The translations under genes were made by a program, and so were the position numbers. The notes beneath the pieces were generated by a model. It made no database searches. It had not been told where the DNA came from and saw only the letters and a program-made list of their open reading frames with translations. Shown piece by piece: positions 49,409 to 64,000 of a stretch of 64,000 nucleotides of DNA. Position 1 is the first letter of the stretch; every line of letters starts with the position of its first letter. The stretch comes from Terriglobus roseus (lineage in GTDB: Bacteria; Acidobacteriota; Terriglobia; Terriglobales; Acidobacteriaceae), in the NCBI RefSeq assembly GCF_900102185.1, contig NZ_LT629690.1, forward strand, positions 620,001-684,000. The letters run 5' to 3'.

Positions 49409-50136
49409 TGGGGTTCTCCAGTCAGATGGCTGTGGTTCTGGCGCAATATGCGCAGGTCAAACAAAAGGCCGTCGGTATTCATCTCCACCCGAAGTTGCAC
49501 TCCACTCTCTCCGGCGTTGTGTGCCGATGTCAGAACTCGGCCCAGACGTTCCAGGGCAAATGCATCCGGCAGATCGCCGCGACTACGCGCATCACGCAGA
49601 TAGACAGCATTGCTGGTGAGTAGTCGCTCGCCTTCCGCTTGTGTCTGTTCGTCTAGCGGCGCAGTCGCATGATTCACAACGGTGAGCCAACGTTCCGCAC
49701 TGTCCAGGTGGTTCGAAACATCTTGTGTGGCAACGTTCGTTGCAGGAGGTCGAAGCTGAATCACTCCTGCTTCATCCGGCATCGCAGGTTTGCGCAGTAG
49801 ACGAGGCACAAAGAATGCTGCGACCACCAAAACAGCAGCGATGATGCCTGCGGGCACAAGTACGAACTGTTGCCAGAAGCGCGTCTTTTGGGTGCGTTCG
49901 AGAACGGGAAGGCTGTTGCGCAGATGCTGCCAAGCAGCATGAGTATCCGGCGCAGGTACAGGCTCTGCAGAAAAGACACGGAGCGTGCGCTGAATTGATT
50001 CAGAGAGCGCAGCAAATGCATCATCAGTCTGTAGGCGAGCGCGTATTGTCTTCTCATCGCACGGTTCGCCCAAGTGATAGGCGGTTAGTTCCTGCTCGTC
50101 ATTTTGCAGGTCGTCTTGCCAATGTTGATTGCTCAT
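49405..50136 (-). CDS. Membrane anti-sigma factor
   Basis: This is a predicted partner of the ECF sigma factor encoded just upstream. The 243-residue protein has an N-terminal cytoplasmic region of about 90 residues (ELTAYHLGEPCDEKTIRARL), one membrane helix at 91-110, and a periplasmic part of about 130 residues. There is no clear HxxxCxxC zinc motif, so it is not a ZAS-type factor. Four-base overlaps with both neighbours (sigma at 50133-50136, TPR/HEAT at 49405-49408) tie it to the operon. The anti-sigma role is inferred from topology and position. Confidence 0.78.
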   Translation of the reverse strand: MSNQHWQDDLQNDEQELTAYHLGEPCDEKTIRARLQTDDAFAALSESIQRTLRVFSAEPVPAPDTHAAWQHLRNSLPVLERTQKTRFWQQFVLVPAGIIAAVLVVAAFFVPRLLRKPAMPDEAGVIQLRPPATNVATQDVSNHLDSAERWLTVVNHATAPLDEQTQAEGERLLTSNAVYLRDARSRGDLPDAFALERLGRVLTSAHNAGESGVQLRVEMNTDGLLFDLRILRQNHSHLTGEPQ

Positions 50137-50717
50137 CGCATCCCTCCTGCAAGCGAAGCTAACGACGCGCGCAATTTGCTGACTGCGCGAAAGACCGCCT
50201 GCTTCGCGGAGTTGGTTGGAACACGCAACGCCTCGGCAATCTCGGCAATCGAGAGATCTTCCATATGCCGCATGGTGAATGCAGTGCGCTCCATAGGTGT
50301 GAGTGCTTCCATCGCTTTCTGTCGCAACCGCGCCGACTCCGCATCCAGAAGCTGCCGCTCTGGTCCTGCGTGGCTGTCGGCAACCTGTAGCGGAAGCGTT
50401 CCTGGTGCAGCAGGTTCGTCCAGTTGACGCGCTCCGTGGCTGATGTCCCGCCTCCGGCGTTCCACGAGATTGAGTGCAGAATTCATTGCGATGCGGTTTA
50501 CCCAGGTTGAGAAGTTACTGTCTTGCCGAAAGCTTTCCAGCTTGCGGTAGGCGCGAAGGAATGCGTCTTGCGTGGCTTCTTCCGCGTCCTCGGCATTGCC
50601 AGTAATGCGAAAAGCCATGCGATACGCAACGGGATAATGCCGCTCCACGAGCAGGCAATAGCTATCGCGATCACCGCGAAGCACACGCTGGATGGCTGCT
50701 GACTCGTCCCGTTCCAT
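50133..50717 (-). CDS. ECF sigma-70 family factor
   Basis: This is an extracytoplasmic-function sigma factor of 194 residues. Region 2 (YPVAYRMAFRITGNAEDAEE, then FSTWVNRIAMNSALNL) and region 4 (LSIAEIAEALRVPTNSAKQA) are both complete. I place the start at the ATG at 50717 because the protein alignment begins there and an ECF-type promoter lies immediately upstream. The open frame continues to 50804, but that extra part is not like sigma factors. It heads a four-gene operon. Confidence 0.9.
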   Translation of the reverse strand: MERDESAAIQRVLRGDRDSYCLLVERHYPVAYRMAFRITGNAEDAEEATQDAFLRAYRKLESFRQDSNFSTWVNRIAMNSALNLVERRRRDISHGARQLDEPAAPGTLPLQVADSHAGPERQLLDAESARLRQKAMEALTPMERTAFTMRHMEDLSIAEIAEALRVPTNSAKQAVFRAVSKLRASLASLAGGMR

Positions 50718-50724
50718 TCGCTCG

Positions 50725-50750
50725 ATTAGACAATGAGTTTTGAAAGCGGT
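50725..50750 (-). promoter_or_regulatory. Candidate ECF-type promoter of the sigma operon
   Basis: On the minus strand AACC is followed by 16 bases and then GTCTAA. This matches the ECF consensus pattern of an AAC-type -35 and GTC-type -10 at the normal spacing. GTCTAA ends about seven bases before the ATG at 50717, so transcription would begin at or next to the start codon. Self-control by the operon's own sigma factor is inferred. Confidence 0.5.
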
Positions 50751-50993
50751 TAGGAAGATTTTTTTGTTTGAGGCGAGCGACTTCAAGAGCATGCCATTCG
50801 GCAATTACTAAGCGACAGATACGATTGAACTTCGTAGCGGAATTCGCGATGTATATATCTCCGAATCAGGCGCGGCATAAGCCCATGTCTATTCAAAGCA
50901 GAGGGTTAACTCCGATACGAAAGCAGGAGTAATACCATCGTCCAATTGTGCGGTGGCTGGTTCTCTGTCGTACTAGTTGCGGTGGAGGGCGCG

Positions 50994-54105: not shown

Positions 54106-54819
54106 TTACATGTTTGTTGCATGCATCATGACGCGCGCTCGATAGAGTCTCGACTTCGCAGCCGCGTATGAGATGTTGAGACGGCACGCGGCCTCTCGAA
54201 CCGTGCAATCTTCGATCAAAAGAGTTTGTACGACATCTTGGAGCCTAGTAGGCAGTTGATCGACATCGTGCATAAGAGTGGCGTGCTGCTGTTTTCGATC
54301 AAGGAGTTGCTCAGGCCCGGGTGCAATATCTCGAAATCCCTCGGACCAGCGATCATCTTCGGGCGACGACATAGCCTCCAGCGACATTTCAGGACGCCGC
54401 CGCCGCCGCCGCAACATTCCGAGTGCGGAATTGATAGCGATGCGGGTAAGCCATGTGTGGAAGCTCGACCTTCCTTCGAATCGACGCACCGCGGAGAACG
54501 CGAGTATGAAGGAATCTTGCAATGCATCCTCTGCATCAAAGGGATTTCTTACGATTCTCAAAATGGTGAGATATAGCCGTTTGGAGTGGATGTCCCAAAG
54601 TTCGCCGAATGCCATGGGGCATCCCGATCTTGCACTATCGACAAGATGCTGATAACAAGCTGAGGAACCGGACAAGGATTGATCTAGAAGTCTCTTCTCA
54701 TCTCCGTGAATGAAGTCATGCTGGAAATTAGGAAGAGTACTGCCATCAGAATCAAAGGCTTCGCACGTCGGTTGTATGTGTAATTCCAACCTTGGTATTT
54801 CCATAGCTTGAGCGATCAT
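54106..54819 (-). CDS. ECF sigma-70 family factor (orphan)
   Basis: The 237-residue protein has sigma region 2 (RLYLTILRIVRNPFDAEDAL, then FHTWLTRIAINSALGMLRR) and region 4 (CTVREAACRLNISYAAAKSR). The N-terminus is extended by about 75 residues compared with typical ECF factors. I choose the ATG at 54819 because GGAGGA lies just upstream; an earlier start would add 22 residues. Unlike the other two ECF genes here, it has no anti-sigma gene next to it; its neighbours are an SDR gene and a gene-free gap. Confidence 0.88.
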   Translation of the reverse strand: MIAQAMEIPRLELHIQPTCEAFDSDGSTLPNFQHDFIHGDEKRLLDQSLSGSSACYQHLVDSARSGCPMAFGELWDIHSKRLYLTILRIVRNPFDAEDALQDSFILAFSAVRRFEGRSSFHTWLTRIAINSALGMLRRRRRRPEMSLEAMSSPEDDRWSEGFRDIAPGPEQLLDRKQQHATLMHDVDQLPTRLQDVVQTLLIEDCTVREAACRLNISYAAAKSRLYRARVMMHATNM

Positions 54820-54973
54820 TGTTCCTCCATGTGCTAAACACGCGACTTCTTGGAAGCAGTTTGTTGTCTCAATAGCCAGAGTCAAGTGTGGGACAGCGTT
54901 CGACGTTTAAAGATCTCGGCGTGACGGAGCCATCAACTACTCATGGTCCGTCAGATTGGAATCTGATCTTGCC

Positions 54974-56372: not shown

Positions 56373-57047
56373 TTATTCGACCGCAACGCGGAAGGAGAGT
56401 TCGTAGTGTTCGGATAACGAGTCGAGCGTGACCCGATAGTGCATTTCGTGGAGTGTACCTGGGGGAAATGTAAGTTCGAGATATAAGCCACCAATGGCAC
56501 CCTGAGGCCTAATGTCGGGGATGGGGGGCTCATTTTCTAGTTGCACGGTAAAGGTCTCGCTCCGTGCAGAGGCTGGCAGCAGGATTTGCAGACGTGTTGC
56601 GTTCGCGTGATGCACTGTGTAGACAGCAGGCACGTTTGCGCTGTCGCTACTGCGCTGGCGGACTGCTGCCAAAAGGATCGTGTCCTGTTGGCTGTTTGTA
56701 GAGGGGGGTACTGCATTAGCTTGTGTAGGACTTGAAGCTGAGTAACGTGGAGTGCGAGCGATGGCAAGTATTAGGAGGCAGGCAGTTACCACTGCTACTC
56801 CGAAGAGCCACCAGCGCCAGGGCTTCCGGTCAGGTTTGATGCTATGAAGTCGCTGCGATATAAAGACGCGCGTGCGAAGCTCAGGTGATGACTCAATCCA
56901 GCGTTTGATCTCCTTATGTTCAGCGGGTGGAAGCGCACCTGCGGCGTATTCGTCGATAAGGTCGAACTCCTCTGCTTCGACTGCCTCCGAGAACTCCTCG
57001 TCCTCAATGAGGCGCAGCTCGAAAGCCTCGCGTTCCTGTGGCGGCAA
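56373..57047 (-). CDS. Membrane anti-sigma factor of the CHAT operon
   Basis: The coordinates give a TTG-initiated 224-residue product, but coding similarity clearly extends upstream to about 57104 (TREQLLRYILGALPPQE), where no ATG, GTG or TTG is available. The protein has an acidic cytoplasmic region, including a repeated ILGALPPQ/AGALPPAE motif, one membrane helix at about residues 80-97, and a periplasmic domain of about 125 residues with beta-strand-rich sequence. It lies directly after the ECF gene with no gap in frame, which marks it as its regulator. Confidence 0.75.
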   Translation of the reverse strand: MPPQEREAFELRLIEDEEFSEAVEAEEFDLIDEYAAGALPPAEHKEIKRWIESSPELRTRVFISQRLHSIKPDRKPWRWWLFGVAVVTACLLILAIARTPRYSASSPTQANAVPPSTNSQQDTILLAAVRQRSSDSANVPAVYTVHHANATRLQILLPASARSETFTVQLENEPPIPDIRPQGAIGGLYLELTFPPGTLHEMHYRVTLDSLSEHYELSFRVAVE

Positions 57048-57125
57048 AGCGCCAAGGATGTAGCGAAGGAGCTGTTCTCTCGTATTGGATTGCGTGTCGT
57101 TCAGCGTGACTCTCTCTTTCTTAAC

Positions 57126-57689
57126 CTAAGTGCGATTTTGGGAAGAAACATCAGATAGGCGATTGCGGACGCAGGTGTCGAGCTCGCGACGGGCACGCAT
57201 AAGACGGTTTCGCAGAGTGTTGATTGAAATGCCGAGGCGTTCGGCAAGCTGGCGATGGTGTTCGATCTTTTGTTTTCCAGTGGATTCGTAATAGGTGCGC
57301 AGAAGCTCGCTTTTTGCAGTAGGCATACTTGCGAGACAAACGTCGATGGCTTGCAGGGCGACCTCCTCGTCAGGGTTGGCTATCTTTCTGGAGGTTTGCC
57401 AGTTTCGGCCTGCCTCCGCTTCGCGAAGTTCTGCACGGACGTTTTCCTGCAGTACGTGACGGGCAATGCCCAGAGCGAAGGCAGTTGGGGAGGCTATGGA
57501 GGCTGCGTCGCTCGCCGCGATTTTCGCGAGACGGTTCAGTACCTCGTCGGCAAGTTGTTCCGGATCGGCGCATGCATTGATGCGGAAGTATCGCGTGAGG
57601 CGTTGGTGCAGGTTGCCGTAAGCGGTTCCGGACGACTCTGGGCCATCGCCGAGCAGACTGAGGAGCGCGCTGAGGGACCCTTCCTGCAT
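57126..57689 (-). CDS. ECF sigma-70 family factor of the CHAT operon
   Basis: The 187-residue protein has a compact region 2 (RYFRINACADPEQLADEVLN) and a region 4 helix-turn-helix (LAERLGISINTLRNRLMRAR). It is divergent from classical ECF groups. Its ATG lies three bases after the CHAT stop codon. Its TAG is in the same frame as the following anti-sigma gene. This tight layout indicates one transcript with coupled translation. Confidence 0.83.
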   Translation of the reverse strand: MQEGSLSALLSLLGDGPESSGTAYGNLHQRLTRYFRINACADPEQLADEVLNRLAKIAASDAASIASPTAFALGIARHVLQENVRAELREAEAGRNWQTSRKIANPDEEVALQAIDVCLASMPTAKSELLRTYYESTGKQKIEHHRQLAERLGISINTLRNRLMRARRELDTCVRNRLSDVSSQNRT

Positions 57690-57692
57690 TTG

Positions 57693-60600
57693 TCAGTTGC
57701 CCCCGATATGTGGGCCCGCAGGTTGTACGCCGTTGACCACGAACGCTGCCCAGTCGGATACCACTGCGTGATTGTGAAGCATAGAGAGCTGTGTCTGGCG
57801 GATGGCTTCGGCGATTGTGAGTTTCTGCTTCAAGAGCTGCTGGTAGAAGCCAGTCATAAGGGTTGCGGTTGCGTCGTCGTCGACATCCCACAGACTGCCG
57901 ATGACTTGTTGCGCCCCTGCATAGAAGAAAGCTTGTGTAAGTGTGGCGAGTTCTTCACCAGAGGGCGCTTCGCCTTCTGTGGTGCAGCCGCTGAGTGTGA
58001 CGAGTGGAGGAGCGTGGAGCGAGGGGATATCGCGTAGCCATAGGACGCTTTGTGCTGCCCCATGTGCGTTGCCGGAAGAGAGTGCGATACCGGAGAGCTC
58101 AGGATGGCCGCTGACAAGAAGCGTATGCGTTGCTACGTGGAAGATTGCAAGGTCGGTTCGCAAAGCGGAGCGGACGTTGTCAACGGTGGCCTGTTTACCG
58201 CGGAGCTGTTCCAAGTACATCGCAGGGATGAGGCGTGCGATGGCGTCTGCTTCTCGGTGTGTTCCCGGAAGCGCAGCCAGGTGCATCCACTGTGGTGTGG
58301 CTTGGGATTGCGTCGAGATTGTGTCGGCGACGAGAAGGACGTTCTTTGTCCGGTCTGGATGTTCCATGCGCGCAAGCGAGATGGCGATGGAGACTGAGGG
58401 CTCAATGGAAGTGGCGAAACGTTCAACCGCGTAGCAGCTATTCGCTCCGCAAGGAATGCGTAGCGCGCTCCACGGGACGGAGAGCAGCGAGCCTTCCGCA
58501 ACGATATAGAGATGATGTACGGAAGGCGGAAGCCTGGGAAGGAGTAATTGCCCGGCCGCGAGAAGCGCCTCTTCGCGATTGCGATTCCATTGATTGAGAC
58601 GTGTGTTGTATGCCTGCACATCTTCGCCAGGATGCAGGGCTGGCTGGTGGTCGCGCAGCATCTGTAGCAGGGGAGTAAGGCGTTGTTGCAAGACATTCTT
58701 TGTTGGCAGCGGCGTGATGGTCGTTGATGACGATGTGATGAGCCAGCGATAAGTATGGCTGGAGCCATGGGAGAACGAGATAAGAGCTTCGCCGGGATGA
58801 AGGAGCGACTGCTGAACATCGTGTGCTGACGCTATCCAGTTGCCTCTGAGTTTGCCGGGCTGGTTGGATGCCTCTGCATTGAGAGCTTCTTCTTCGAGAT
58901 AGAGCGAACGCAGAGTGGTGGCGATGTTTTTGGGGTCGGTGCTTGTAAGGAGTGCTGCCTTCTGCTTTTCTAGCTGAGCCTGGTTCGCGAGAATTCGCTG
59001 TCGGAGTTGGGGTTGTAGATCTGCGGTTTGCGAGTTCTGAGCACCAATGGCGTCGAGCATGGTGCGTGCTCGCGAGCGCTCTGTGTAGCGGAAGGCCGTT
59101 TCGCGAAAGCCTTTATTGGGTGAGCGTTTGTCGAGCTGCATGGAGAGTTCGATGGCAAGTTCGTACCAACTGTGGCGGCCAGTGAAGTAACTTGCGGCAA
59201 GGTCACGTGCTGCGAGTGAGGATCGGGAGTGTTCCACGATAGCAAGTGCTGCAGCTATCGCGTTGAGTGCGGCTTCGTCATCATGCCGTGACTTGTAGAC
59301 GAGAGCGAGACCAGCATCGGCTGTGGCTTCCTGTTCGCGTTCCCCCAAATCCTGCGCAAGCGTGAGGGCTTGCTTGTAAAGATCTTCTGTTTGTGGACAG
59401 GATGCACATGTGTGCTGGTAGATAGCAGCTTGAGCGAGCTTGGTATCTAAACCAAGAGCGGGGAGTTTGAGCTCGTCCGCGAGGCGTGCGGCATCCGCTA
59501 CATCATTTTGCGCGGCCGCTATTTGATCAGTGTGTAAGTACGTAGCTGAGCGACGAAGGAGTAGAGATGCTTCCTCCGGCTTAAGTTCGAGCTTCTGAGC
59601 GACGGCGATCGCGGAGGCGTATTCGCGGAGTGCATCCTGCGGTTTTCCATTGTGTTCGAGGACATTCGCAAGCATGCCACGTGCGTCGAGCGCGACCTGG
59701 CTGTCAGTCGAGGCGTGATTTAGGCAAAGGCGGAGCTGCGTTTCCGCTTCGCCGTTCATCCCAAGATCGAGATAGAAGCTGCCGAAGTCTTTTTCGATTT
59801 CGGCTTCGATGAGCGGAGCGTAATGGATACTTTCACCCCAGGCCGTGGCTCGGCGAAAGGCTTCGAAAGCTTCTTCAAATCGACCCTGCTCGCGATAGAG
59901 AGTGCCAAGTTCGCTGAGAGTGAAGACAACGCCCGCGGGGTCTTCGGTTTTTTCTGAGTCGGCGAGCGCTTCCTGTCCTGCAGCTACTGCATCGTCGGCG
60001 CGTCCGGCTTCTCCGTAAAGGGAGACAAGATTACCGAGGACGATTCCTTGCCAGTAAACGTCGCCGTTCTTCCGGTAGAGTGCCAGCGCTTTTTCGGAGT
60101 CTTCGATCGACGCCTGAAGATTGCCGAGGAAGTATTCGTCAGCTTCAAGTGTTTTCCAGACCAGCGCCTGGACGGCCGTATCGGAAACGTCAGGGAGTGC
60201 GAGTGCCTGTTGCAACAATGCTCGCCCTTCAACGTATCTGCTGCGTTGGTAGATGAGGAACCGAGCCTTTTGCGTGATGGCCCAGCGAGCGAGCGCGGTG
60301 TTGTGGGCGGCTGTTGCTTCGGCGGCTGCAGTGTCGTAGAGGGTCAGCGCAGTAGGCCCGTCGGGCGCCCCGGGCATCTTTCTCCGCGTCATGTCGGCAC
60401 GGGCCAGGGCAGTGCCCGCTGCGAGGAGGTGTTCTCGATCCAGCGCCGAATGGGTGGCCGTAACGTCCCGAAGGATGAGGGAGGCCTGCCGCGACTGCTC
60501 TGCTGAGGAGAGGTCGATGTGGGCGAGACCGTCGTTAGCGGCGGTGACTGCGTAAAGGAGTTCGCCGCCCGAGCCAAGATCGAGGATGCGACGCGGTGTC

Positions 60601-60812
60601 TCTGTGGATTGGGCGAAGAGCAGACCACCTTGCAGTTCTAACTGGAGGACCACAATCGTGCCGGGCTGGGCGGCTATCTGATAGCCCCGCTTTTCGCCGG
60701 ATTTGAGAGTGCTTTGAACCGAGCCGCCGGGCGGGATGACTGTTTGCGCATGCGCGAACCCTGCCGTTAGTGCTAAGGATGCAAGGACACAGAAGAAGCC
60801 ACCGCGTTTCAT
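57693..60812 (-). CDS. Secreted TPR-CHAT caspase-like peptidase
   Basis: This is a predicted exported clan CD peptidase of 1039 residues. A signal peptide (MKRGGFFCVLASLALTAGFAHAQ) is followed by a beta domain (residues 25-120) and about ten TPR motifs (roughly 170-560, such as SLYGEAGRADDAVAAGQEAL). The CHAT domain fills residues about 700-1030. The catalytic pair is intact: His896 in HVATHTLL and Cys943 in VTLSGCTTEGE. GSLWDVDDDATATLM follows, as usual. It leads an operon with an ECF sigma factor and anti-sigma factor. The peptidase target is unknown. Confidence 0.88.
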   Translation of the reverse strand: MKRGGFFCVLASLALTAGFAHAQTVIPPGGSVQSTLKSGEKRGYQIAAQPGTIVVLQLELQGGLLFAQSTETPRRILDLGSGGELLYAVTAANDGLAHIDLSSAEQSRQASLILRDVTATHSALDREHLLAAGTALARADMTRRKMPGAPDGPTALTLYDTAAAEATAAHNTALARWAITQKARFLIYQRSRYVEGRALLQQALALPDVSDTAVQALVWKTLEADEYFLGNLQASIEDSEKALALYRKNGDVYWQGIVLGNLVSLYGEAGRADDAVAAGQEALADSEKTEDPAGVVFTLSELGTLYREQGRFEEAFEAFRRATAWGESIHYAPLIEAEIEKDFGSFYLDLGMNGEAETQLRLCLNHASTDSQVALDARGMLANVLEHNGKPQDALREYASAIAVAQKLELKPEEASLLLRRSATYLHTDQIAAAQNDVADAARLADELKLPALGLDTKLAQAAIYQHTCASCPQTEDLYKQALTLAQDLGEREQEATADAGLALVYKSRHDDEAALNAIAAALAIVEHSRSSLAARDLAASYFTGRHSWYELAIELSMQLDKRSPNKGFRETAFRYTERSRARTMLDAIGAQNSQTADLQPQLRQRILANQAQLEKQKAALLTSTDPKNIATTLRSLYLEEEALNAEASNQPGKLRGNWIASAHDVQQSLLHPGEALISFSHGSSHTYRWLITSSSTTITPLPTKNVLQQRLTPLLQMLRDHQPALHPGEDVQAYNTRLNQWNRNREEALLAAGQLLLPRLPPSVHHLYIVAEGSLLSVPWSALRIPCGANSCYAVERFATSIEPSVSIAISLARMEHPDRTKNVLLVADTISTQSQATPQWMHLAALPGTHREADAIARLIPAMYLEQLRGKQATVDNVRSALRTDLAIFHVATHTLLVSGHPELSGIALSSGNAHGAAQSVLWLRDIPSLHAPPLVTLSGCTTEGEAPSGEELATLTQAFFYAGAQQVIGSLWDVDDDATATLMTGFYQQLLKQKLTIAEAIRQTQLSMLHNHAVVSDWAAFVVNGVQPAGPHIGGN

Positions 60813-60937
60813 GTCGACTCGTTAGGGGACGGCAGTGCGGTCAGAATACCAATGCATTTGGGCTCTCGAAAAAAAATGTGTGATGTTTCTGCGCTTCTGC
60901 TCATTAGGTTGTGAAAGCCAAAGACCAAAGATGTTCT

Positions 60938-60953
60938 GCCCCTGTGAAGGGGC
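60938..60953 (+). other. Short hairpin in the leader of the FG-GAP gene
   Basis: GCCCCT at 60938-60943 pairs with AGGGGC at 60948-60953. It lies 57 bases before the start codon in the divergent gap 60813-61009. No T-run follows. It could be a leader hairpin; its function is not known. Confidence 0.3.
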
Positions 60954-61009
60954 GTTTCAAGCTGATTCAGTTTCTTTTTGCCATTGCAAGGTTCTCCGGA
61001 GAGTCTGTT

Positions 61010-64000
61010 ATGTCCTTCGCAACTTCGATCCAGGCGATTGCTGGCGTTAGCCGGACATCGTTCGCGCGTGTAGCCATCACAATGTTGACCGCGAGCCTTT
61101 CTATATCGCCGCTGGTGCCTCAGGCTGCTGCACAGACAAGCGAAGTCAAAGCTCGGCCTAGCGTGATCACCGGAACGGATGGCACAGCTTCGGGGACCGC
61201 CAGCTTTCAGGGGAACTTCACGGCAATCTCGGCACCGTCAGGGCAGGCGGTGGGGCTTGCCCGCGAGGCGGATTGTTCGTTGAACTTCTATACCGGCAGC
61301 TACAGCCTTACCACCACGAGCTTTAGCTACACGCGCACCAGCATTGCCACCAAATACGATCAAACTCTGCATGCGCATGCAGCCTTGGGTACTACCGCTG
61401 GATCGGCTTACGCCGCCGGTTGCAATAGCTATCCTGTGGGAATTGGATCGCGGCCCGGACTGTTTCTTGGTCGGACACCCACAAATATCAATGTTTTCGC
61501 GGGTTTGTACTATTCACCAGTTTCGATGGGCGAGGCTCTTTATGTGCTTTCCGGCCTGGAGGGTAGTGTTACCGGCTATGGCATGAAGGTCTACAGCTTC
61601 TCAAGCGCCACTGCGCTTTCGTCCGCAGATCTGAACGGGGACCACGTTGGAGACATCGTCGTTTCGCGTGGCACGGGAACTTCCGCCGGTTCTGTCTCTG
61701 TCCTGCTTGGAAGCAGTGACGGAAGCTTTCCGGCTTCTGGGGTTACGTACAACACGGGCGGTTCAGCTACGGTGGCGTCTGTTGTAGATGACTTCGATGG
61801 CGATGGCGTATTGGACATCGTCGCGATTTCGAACGGTATTAATTTGGGCGATGCGCAAATCCTGTCATTCCTGAAGGGCAAGGGTGATGGCACGTTTGCC
61901 GCGGCAGTGAACATGAATGTTCCGCTGGTCGCGGGAACCACCTCGTCGTCAGCCCCTGTAACCAACCTTGCTTCCGCGAACCTTCGAGGGACGGGGATGA
62001 AGGACATTGTTTGCAGCAATGGACTCGTGCTGTTAAACAACACGTCGACATCAAGCTCCACGCCGTTTACTGCTTCTAGCTCGTATGCGTTTCCTTACGA
62101 CATCGCCAGTGGCAGCCCAGGGCCCAACCTTGCGCTTGGAGACATTAACAAGGACGGCCGCGTGGACCTTGTTGTGGGTGGTGGCGGCGTCGTGCACACG
62201 TACCTCGGCAAGGGCGACGGCACCTTCACTCCCGGCCAGAGTTACGACTCCATCCCGTCGATTGGCTTTGTCACGATTGACGATCTCGACGGCGATGGCA
62301 ATGCCGACATTTATGTCGGATTGGGAAACAACGGCGTCGATGAAGGCGATGGGTATTTCAACAATATGTCGTACGCCCTGATGGGCAATGGTGACGGCAG
62401 CTTTCAGGGAGCGTACTCCGGTAGTGCAACGTATAACGGCACGAATATTGGTGATGTGAACGGAGACGGCATACCAGACATGGTGGCCGCGACGAGCTCT
62501 CAGGCCAACAATGGATTCTTTGCCAGTTTCACTGTTCAGCTTGGCAATGGTAAGGGAGGTTTTACTGCTGGCTCTGCTGTGCCGCAGCCGGGAGCCTTTT
62601 CTCTGAATGGTTATAGCTTTGCGGCAGGTAGTCTTTCAACTGCGCAAGTGCCTACCTATGCCCTTGGCGACATCGATGGCGATGGTAAAGCTGATCTTGT
62701 ATTTATCGCGAATGGCCTGACTGCAACGAGCAGTGGTGGCTCTCTCGTTACGTATCCATATCCGGTGTACTTCACCGCTCACTCAAACGGCGACGGCACG
62801 TTTGCTACGCCGATGCCTTATGCCTTCCCGCAGATTGCTCCTGCGGCTGACTTCGACAATCAGCTGTCGGTGACAAATCTCCAACTGGTGGATGTGACCA
62901 ACGACGGCAAGTTGGATTTGGTGGCGAGTTACAACGCTATCGCTGGAACTGCATTTGGACAGCCTCCGGTCAATCCATACCAGGAGGGGATTGTTGTGCT
63001 GGCCGGAACGGGTACGGGCACGTTCAGCACTACACGAGTATTGACAAGCGTTTACTCAAGCACGACTGCACCGACCACTGCAGTTGTGCCTTACGTGGCA
63101 GGGCATGCCGACCTGAACGGCGATGGCAAGAACGATCTGATTGTGTACAACAGCACCTTCGCTGTTGTGAACGGCACGGGTGTAACGACTACGACGTATA
63201 GTGCCTTTTTGAGCAATGGTGACGGAACCTTCGCGGCACCTACTGTGCTGGCAACCGCAGCAAAACTAAACGACCTGACCATCAATGACTTCAATAATGA
63301 TGGACATCCTGATGTCGCGTACGTTGCTGAAGCGGTGAACGGTGGCCAGGCGACACTCAACATCGTTTTGGGTAATGGAAACGGTGGTGTTGGAGGGAAT
63401 CATTCCTACAATCTGAGCGGTGGAGACGCCGTAATGATCGCAGGCCTTGCAGCGGCTGACTTCGATGGCGATGGCAAGGCAGACCTTGCCTTGATCGGCA
63501 GCAATATCGTAAGTGGTGTGTTTTATGGCAACGGTGACGGCACATTCACGAACGTTGTGAGTAATAACCTTTCCTATCCGCGTGACCTCATCAACCTTTC
63601 TGGCGGTGGCGCTTCAACCGCTTTGGATTTGAATAAGGATGGGAAGCCAGACATCCTTACAGGCAGTACTGTGTTGCTGAATATGTATGGCTCCGCTCCA
63701 AGCCTGCTTGCAACGACGGCTACAGCACTCACAGCAAATGCATCAACCATTCCTGCAAACGGATCGGTTGTACTGACCACTACGATCACGTCAACAACTG
63801 CCGGGGCGCCGACGGGGACGGTGAAGTTCCTGGATGGATCGAACACTCTTGGTGTGGTGACGTTGGCTTCGGGAAGCGCTTCATTGACAGCGAAAAATCT
63901 AAGCGTTGGTTCGCATTCGATTACCGCTGTTTATTCAGGCGATAGCACATATGCCACGTCGACATCTTCGATTGTGACCTTGGCGGTTACGGCATCTGTA
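61010..64000 (+). CDS. FG-GAP/VCBS repeat surface protein (3' end outside window)
   Basis: The ATG at 61010 has GGAGAG seven bases before it, and the frame is open for 997 codons to the window edge. A signal peptide (ending PLVPQAAAQ) leads into a beta domain, then at least eight FG-GAP/VCBS repeats with calcium-binding DxNxDG/DxDGDG loops, such as DDFDGDGVLDIV, GDINKDGRVDLV and DFDGDGKADLAL. An immunoglobulin-like domain (TGTVKFLDGSNTLGVVTL) begins near residue 940. It is probably an outer surface protein. Its remaining length is not visible. Confidence 0.9.
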   Translation, partial: MSFATSIQAIAGVSRTSFARVAITMLTASLSISPLVPQAAAQTSEVKARPSVITGTDGTASGTASFQGNFTAISAPSGQAVGLAREADCSLNFYTGSYSLTTTSFSYTRTSIATKYDQTLHAHAALGTTAGSAYAAGCNSYPVGIGSRPGLFLGRTPTNINVFAGLYYSPVSMGEALYVLSGLEGSVTGYGMKVYSFSSATALSSADLNGDHVGDIVVSRGTGTSAGSVSVLLGSSDGSFPASGVTYNTGGSATVASVVDDFDGDGVLDIVAISNGINLGDAQILSFLKGKGDGTFAAAVNMNVPLVAGTTSSSAPVTNLASANLRGTGMKDIVCSNGLVLLNNTSTSSSTPFTASSSYAFPYDIASGSPGPNLALGDINKDGRVDLVVGGGGVVHTYLGKGDGTFTPGQSYDSIPSIGFVTIDDLDGDGNADIYVGLGNNGVDEGDGYFNNMSYALMGNGDGSFQGAYSGSATYNGTNIGDVNGDGIPDMVAATSSQANNGFFASFTVQLGNGKGGFTAGSAVPQPGAFSLNGYSFAAGSLSTAQVPTYALGDIDGDGKADLVFIANGLTATSSGGSLVTYPYPVYFTAHSNGDGTFATPMPYAFPQIAPAADFDNQLSVTNLQLVDVTNDGKLDLVASYNAIAGTAFGQPPVNPYQEGIVVLAGTGTGTFSTTRVLTSVYSSTTAPTTAVVPYVAGHADLNGDGKNDLIVYNSTFAVVNGTGVTTTTYSAFLSNGDGTFAAPTVLATAAKLNDLTINDFNNDGHPDVAYVAEAVNGGQATLNIVLGNGNGGVGGNHSYNLSGGDAVMIAGLAAADFDGDGKADLALIGSNIVSGVFYGNGDGTFTNVVSNNLSYPRDLINLSGGGASTALDLNKDGKPDILTGSTVLLNMYGSAPSLLATTATALTANASTIPANGSVVLTTTITSTTAGAPTGTVKFLDGSNTLGVVTLASGSASLTAKNLSVGSHSITAVYSGDSTYATSTSSIVTLAVTASV

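Follow-up and report, generated by a model that had tools for sequence, protein, structure and literature searches.

In a 64,000-nucleotide stretch of the Terriglobus roseus genome (contig NZ_LT629690.1, positions 620,001 to 684,000; hereafter the window, whose own numbering is used for positions), three genes follow one another on the minus strand. The first encodes a protein with tetratricopeptide repeats and a caspase-like CHAT peptidase domain (TPR-CHAT), the second an extracytoplasmic function (ECF) sigma factor and the third an anti-sigma factor with a single transmembrane (TM) segment (Table 1). The initial annotation of this DNA had listed a 1039-residue exported TPR-CHAT protein with a His896/Cys943 pair, an ECF gene starting 3 bases past the CHAT stop codon and an anti-sigma gene in frame with the ECF stop, and every detail that we checked was confirmed. 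Based on the comparisons below, we somewhat favor the view that the three genes form one signaling unit, in which the CHAT peptidase would cut the anti-sigma factor or remove its partner.

The CHAT protein belongs to its family both by its score against Pfam PF12770 (185 bits; cut-off 24) and by its His-Cys pair, and it matches TPR_12 with 67 bits. Its N-terminus, MKRGGFFCVLASLALTAGFAHA-QT, resembles a Sec signal peptide when judged by eye, with a putative cut site just before QT, while residues 23-125 matched no Pfam family and no PDB relative (best E-value 0.45). Because TPR proteins dominated the PDB matches of the full-length CHAT profile, its C-terminal part was used instead; the best match was 8rot, another CHAT protein (E = 1.8e-9), and the Csx29 chain 7y9x was matched with E = 8.6e-6. 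The ECF protein is, by its profile scores, a divergent sigma factor. Its region 4 narrowly passes in Pfam (PF08281, 27.6 bits versus a cut-off of 25.7, model positions 29-54 of 54), and a region-2-like stretch can be made out by eye, PF04542 not being reported in the Pfam scan at E up to 0.1. Its NCBIfam matches, TIGR02937 (28.1 versus 42.9 bits) and the best one, TIGR02989 (E = 3e-10), both stay below their cut-offs. The anti-sigma factor scores exactly at the zf-HC2 cut-off (22.2 bits) and below that of NF052375 (E = 4e-10; 40 of 100 bits); direct reading of its sequence revealed no HxxxCxxC motif, and the anti-sigma profile found no solved relative in the PDB below E = 0.027. As basic residues precede its only TM segment, the N-terminus would lie in the cytoplasm and the C-terminus in the periplasm.

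The TAG stop codon of the ECF gene (57126-57128) shares its frame with the anti-sigma gene, and the frame is open from that TAG onward, with no fitting ATG, GTG or TTG start for the anti-sigma factor. A listed TTG at 57047 would drop conserved first residues, and the same codon is TTA in a congener, G013 (G and L numbers denote genomes and loci, respectively). A CTG at 57102-57104 lies downstream of a purine-rich stretch and is kept in both genomes, 43 of the 45 surrounding bases being identical, and homologous anti-sigma factors start at about an equal distance from a conserved Y-L-L motif. Because this CTG is conserved and the N-termini of the homologs have a matching length, we favor it as the start codon over read-through of the TAG, a less favored alternative that may yield a sigma/anti-sigma fusion.

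Table 1. Features of the CHAT-ECF-anti-sigma locus and its flank in the window
Feature	Position	Strand	Basis or remark
Exported TPR-CHAT protein, 1039 aa, ATG start	57693..60812	-	open reading frame; PF12770; TPR_12
Putative signal peptide, residues 1-22 (MKRGGFFCVLASLALTAGFAHA)	60747..60812	-	N-terminal hydrophobic window 2.37; kept in L040
CHAT peptidase domain, residues 757-1028	57729..58544	-	Pfam match
Predicted catalytic His896 codon	58125..58127	-	invariant in 24/24 rows of an alignment (A5) and 153/153 CHAT reading frames
Predicted catalytic Cys943 codon	57984..57986	-	invariant in 24/24 rows of the same alignment (A5) and 153/153 CHAT reading frames
Divergent ECF sigma factor, 187 aa	57126..57689	-	PF08281, 27.6 bits; TIGR02989, E = 3e-10
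One-TM anti-sigma factor, 243 aa, inferred CTG start	56373..57104	-	NF052375, E = 4e-10; CTG in G013; fusion homology
Anti-sigma TM segment, about residues 94-113	56766..56825	-	hydropathy
Intergenic region between CHAT and divergent FG-GAP genes; probable, putative promoter region	60813..61009	.	conservation versus G013
Giant secreted-type FG-GAP/Big_3_5 protein, possible target gene	61010..64000	+	runs off the window; divergent from CHAT

The trio is not a chance arrangement, as G013 retains all three genes, with protein identities of 89% (CHAT), 90% (ECF) and 66% (anti-sigma). The trio, in identical order, also occurs in a further genome of the family, G103, whose CHAT protein is 32% identical over most of its length. 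At the genus level, the distribution of the trio is patchy.

CHAT domains (PF12770) are present in 39 of the 61 genomes of the class that we searched. Our class sample comprised 77 loci plus the window, together 79 CHAT open reading frames (ORFs); it holds mainly best-scoring rows, and most matches with E-values poorer than about 1e-53 are absent from it, as are several that fall on short contigs. A same-strand ECF gene lies within 2 kb of 42 of these 79 CHAT ORFs (40 of 75 under a stricter filter), compared with about 2% expected by chance from the whole-genome sigma density in three genomes; sigma-region-4 counts ranged from 27 to 47 in four genomes. A within-locus control (7 of 48) was contaminated by the ECF genes of the CHAT operons themselves. 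Loci with an ECF gene on the opposite strand (L048, L068, L088 and others) were excluded from the linked count, and L073 and L079 fell outside the gap filter; in both, the ECF and CHAT frames share 160 bases, and neither showed a signal peptide. Beyond the class, in 40 loci hand-picked from the phylum for their spread over genomes, 19 of 42 CHAT ORFs of at least 500 aa have a same-strand ECF gene within 2.7 kb. The ECF and anti-sigma labels in these counts derive from profiles iterated on the same loci; NCBIfam sigma models matched all five spot-checked class ECF proteins and the ECF proteins of the three fusion operons described below, mostly below cut-offs. The three-gene neighborhood, which the initial annotation had proposed to look for in relatives, thus recurs.

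The order CHAT, ECF, anti-sigma was found in 12 loci, six from the class sample and six from a search with the window CHAT protein, and the ECF gene follows within 135 bases of CHAT in all of them. Other loci have the order ECF, anti-sigma, CHAT, or ECF, CHAT and a soluble zinc-finger-like protein. In some operons of the ECF, anti-sigma, CHAT type (L066, L078), an extra gene is inserted between the anti-sigma and CHAT genes, as might be expected if the enzyme cut a third, inhibitory protein, such as an RseB-like guard of the anti-sigma factor, and not the anti-sigma factor itself. The window trio contains no such extra gene, and the 12 loci are as tightly spaced as just described; we consider this explanation very improbable.

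The His/Cys pair is intact in all 153 CHAT ORFs, although picking these by a CHAT profile may select somewhat against dead copies; they include 41 of 41 ORFs beside a TM anti-sigma factor as well as the fusions and L138 introduced below. The predicted conservation of the catalytic pair was thereby borne out. Three trio CHAT proteins of one genome (L052, L054, L055; G071) carry a PDZ-like N-terminal stretch, whose PDB matches are DegP, DegQ and related Do proteases, with whole-sequence E-values of 6e-6 to 1e-3 and no single stretch below 0.01; Pfam PDZ_6 stays below its cut-off in L055.

The presence of a hydrophobic CHAT N-terminus accompanies the type of anti-sigma factor encoded nearby. We tabulated 57 ECF-linked CHAT proteins, including a Bacteroidales locus (L039), minus L080 and L128, in which the CHAT frames are cut short; L040, whose anti-sigma factor has no listed start codon, was entered by hand as having a TM anti-sigma factor. 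A hydrophobic N-terminus was present in 28 of 28 CHAT proteins beside a TM anti-sigma factor and in 3 of 27 where none was found. The corresponding counts were 19 of 19 and 3 of 24 in the class sample alone, and 13 of 13 and 2 of 6 outside the class; among ECF proteins, taken as a control at the same threshold, 1 of 71 had such an N-terminus. These counts agree with the proposed association between an export signal and a membrane anti-sigma factor. The initial annotation had also called an exported CHAT protein wired to an ECF switch unusual, which did not hold: 45 of 74 sampled CHAT ORFs of at least 700 aa are N-terminally hydrophobic, and 21 of the 45 ECF-linked CHAT proteins in the class sample are accompanied by a TM anti-sigma factor. 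Loci such as L074, L063, L117, L104 and L121 encode an ECF factor, a CHAT protein without export signal and a soluble zinc-finger-like protein of about 200-240 aa, which passes the Pfam zf-HC2 cut-off for L074, not for L117 or L121; some of these loci continue with a protein bearing a hydrophobic N-terminus. They may represent a second, intracellular version of the CHAT-ECF wiring.

A direct bond between the anti-sigma and CHAT functions is best supported by proteins in which both appear to be joined. A profile of the separate anti-sigma factors matched 1 of 151 CHAT ORFs, L157 of genome G188 (residues 4-114, E = 5.5e-23). With L157 as the query, a search of 149 phylum genomes, scoring up to four candidates per genome, yielded at least two further full-length relatives, in G174 and G232, which the anti-sigma profile matched with E-values of 8.8e-27 (1222 aa) and 6.8e-19 (1170 aa). 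All three proteins consist of an anti-sigma domain, a TM segment, TPRs and a CHAT domain, and all three have an ECF gene directly ahead. Each member of the window trio has its counterpart in the G174 operon: the anti-sigma factor is 40% identical over 86 aa (E = 9e-13), the ECF factor 25% over its whole length (E = 8e-20) and the CHAT protein 30% over 275 aa (E = 3e-15). The window ECF factor also matches those of G188 (E = 6e-22) and G232 (E = 1e-24), and the window anti-sigma factor matches the fused domain of G188 (E = 6e-11) and, weakly, that of G232 (E = 0.002). Pfam did not recognize the fused anti-sigma domain in L157; NCBIfam anti-sigma models match L157 (3e-7) and L181 (6e-6), both below cut-offs. 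In the window's own family, L138 (3104-6835) combines two HxxxCxxC motifs, a TM segment, TPRs and a CHAT domain in one chain directly behind an ECF gene. It is the only one of the 151 CHAT ORFs with this motif, and Pfam did not recognize its zinc finger. On contig 27 of G188, a genome that also has the intact fusion, a fusion-type anti-sigma-TM-TPR part and a CHAT part are split over two ORFs (L203, 6022-9527).

Taken as a whole, these comparisons make a functional bond between the CHAT protein and the anti-sigma factor well supported, and given their adjacency and the single-protein versions in some relatives, the enzyme probably acts at the anti-sigma factor; that it cuts this factor, beyond being its partner, is an inference. 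In the fusions, the TPR-CHAT part occupies the usual position of the anti-sigma periplasmic domain, which is a place for a sensor domain. TPR-CHAT might thus be a sensor that does not cut, binding the periplasmic part of the anti-sigma factor and setting its stability through a ligand-driven change, with another protease making the first cut. Conservation of His and Cys throughout the CHAT ORFs would be unnecessary for a domain that only binds, and we regard such a role as rather unlikely. Alternatively, the CHAT gene could merely be an ECF target, the first gene of an autoregulated operon, whose product acts on other envelope or surface proteins without feedback on the anti-sigma factor. Consistent with this idea, CHAT heads the operon in the window, a gene for a giant surface-type protein lies divergent from it, and their shared intergenic region is conserved, with 170 of 195 aligned bases (87%) identical in G013, compared with 551 of 732 (75%) across the coding part of the anti-sigma gene. 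However, the three fusion genomes and L138 hold both functions in one chain, and the three genes stay together although their order varies. We judge this explanation unlikely and rank it behind the sensor.

For cleavage of the anti-sigma factor or removal of its partner, the reading that we prefer, we envision the following sequence of events. At rest, the anti-sigma factor would keep the ECF factor at the membrane. The periplasmic TPR array, together with the PDZ-like domain in some relatives, might sense a misfolded or mis-sorted envelope or surface protein, upon which the CHAT peptidase would begin with a site-1 cut on the periplasmic side of the anti-sigma factor or destroy its partner. 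RseP-type and cytoplasmic proteases would then complete the degradation and free the ECF factor, whose likely targets would be its own operon and the large secreted surface proteins encoded next door. M50 (RseP-type) proteases gave four matches in the same genome, such that a DegS-RseA-RpoE-like set of components (periplasmic protease, TM anti-sigma factor, ECF factor and M50 protease) is present, as judged by sequence only.

Several observations weigh against this reading. We know of no experiment on proteolysis by an exported CHAT protein or on its substrate. The fusions, in which peptidase and anti-sigma factor are one chain, are compatible with a pure sensor role too. The trio is rare in the genus: at E-values up to 1e-3, the window ECF factor was matched in 1 of 18 congeners (G013), its matches among the 61 genomes searched being confined to its own genome and G013. 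Several of the linked ECF factors are weak or missed in Pfam, whose sigma models do not match those of L041 and L157 and match that of L181 below the cut-off. As one clade holds 27 of the 28 rows labeled cytoplasmic (24 of 24 in a smaller tree), the match between CHAT N-terminus and anti-sigma type amounts to roughly a single contrast, and its nominal Fisher p of 1e-12 is overstated; a test on independent pairs had two pairs only, so that significance was out of reach. Five rows break the match (L102, L127, L138 and, outside the class, L155 and L167), and our explanations of them come from re-reading, with no independent test behind them: the L102 anti-sigma factor has a weak TM segment, the hydrophobic window of L127 lies inside a charged stretch, L138 is the single-chain protein with zinc-finger motifs and a TM segment described above, L155 runs to the contig end, and in L167 the CHAT gene is followed by one for a zf-HC2 protein. 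L157, tabulated as cytoplasmic, proves to be a fusion. Finally, as 24 of 32 sampled CHAT proteins without a linked ECF gene are N-terminally hydrophobic, an exported CHAT protein need not have an anti-sigma partner.

Judged by its components, the window module resembles a hybrid of two known switches without belonging to either. In type III-E CRISPR systems, an ECF-like sigma factor is inhibited by Csx30, which the CHAT protease Csx29 cuts; in the authors' model the sigma factor is thereby freed (PMC10028731). Like the window, the Csx29-Csx30-CASP-sigma locus combines a TPR-CHAT protease, an ECF-like sigma factor and a sigma inhibitor; Csx29, however, pairs with Cas7-11 and is activated by target RNA, whereas the window CHAT protein appears to be exported and has a TM anti-sigma factor as the inhibitor in its locus. 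With 17.5 bits against a cut-off of 100, the window ECF factor is not a member of the CASP-sigma model.

DegS is an HtrA serine protease encoded away from rseA and rpoE. In E. coli it cuts RseA (PMC8103513), and the DegS-RseA-RpoE system resembles the window in having a periplasmic protease, a one-TM anti-sigma factor, an ECF factor and M50 proteases, and the PDZ-like domain of some CHAT relatives adds to the likeness. It differs in that the candidate site-1 enzyme of the window is a caspase-like CHAT cysteine peptidase, encoded in the same operon and sometimes fused to the anti-sigma factor. ECF genes adjoining TM anti-sigma genes, as in the window, are also the subject of a survey of ECF and class I anti-sigma pairs (PMC7406223), in the main text of which the words CHAT and caspase are absent. 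We found no description of an exported CHAT protein with an anti-sigma factor in the literature searched, most subscription journals lying outside that search.

If the preferred reading is true, the exported CHAT proteins, a common group in the sampled genomes for which we found no described function, gain a testable role, and a caspase-like cysteine peptidase joins the proteases that switch off membrane anti-sigma factors. It would also hint at a cellular origin of the protease-sigma arm of type III-E CRISPR systems. In a broader and more tentative version, to which we give less than even credence, caspase-type envelope switches would be widespread and undescribed as a class, each exported CHAT protein serving as the dedicated site-1 protease of the TM anti-sigma factor that it accompanies, encoded separately or in one chain with it; a sister clade would act intracellularly with soluble zinc-finger proteins, and the RNA-triggered type III-E module (Csx29, Csx30, CASP-sigma) would have been recruited from this older wiring.

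The divergent gene upstream of CHAT has a counterpart in the congener locus L040, which has the same kind of giant FG-GAP/Ig-like neighbor, and the trio loci L049 (1-5217) and L054 (3-4265) adjoin giant RHS-repeat proteins; the neighbor scanned at L041 is a glycosidase, not a giant repeat protein. Two further ECF genes lie on the minus strand of the window less than 7 kb from the trio (50133-50804 and 54106-54885). A defence role was considered and not supported, PADLOC matches being weak (TPR, 1e-7; BovA, 3e-4; a kinase model, 0.003). The Bacteroidales locus L039 (1643-9908) encodes, one after another, a TM anti-sigma-like protein, a Peptidase_C14 protein with a caspase domain and a pair of CHAT proteins; its ECF factor was confirmed by neither Pfam nor NCBIfam. 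Two phylum genomes of one family, G208 and G218, contain at least 32 CHAT matches each, representing large paralogous expansions.

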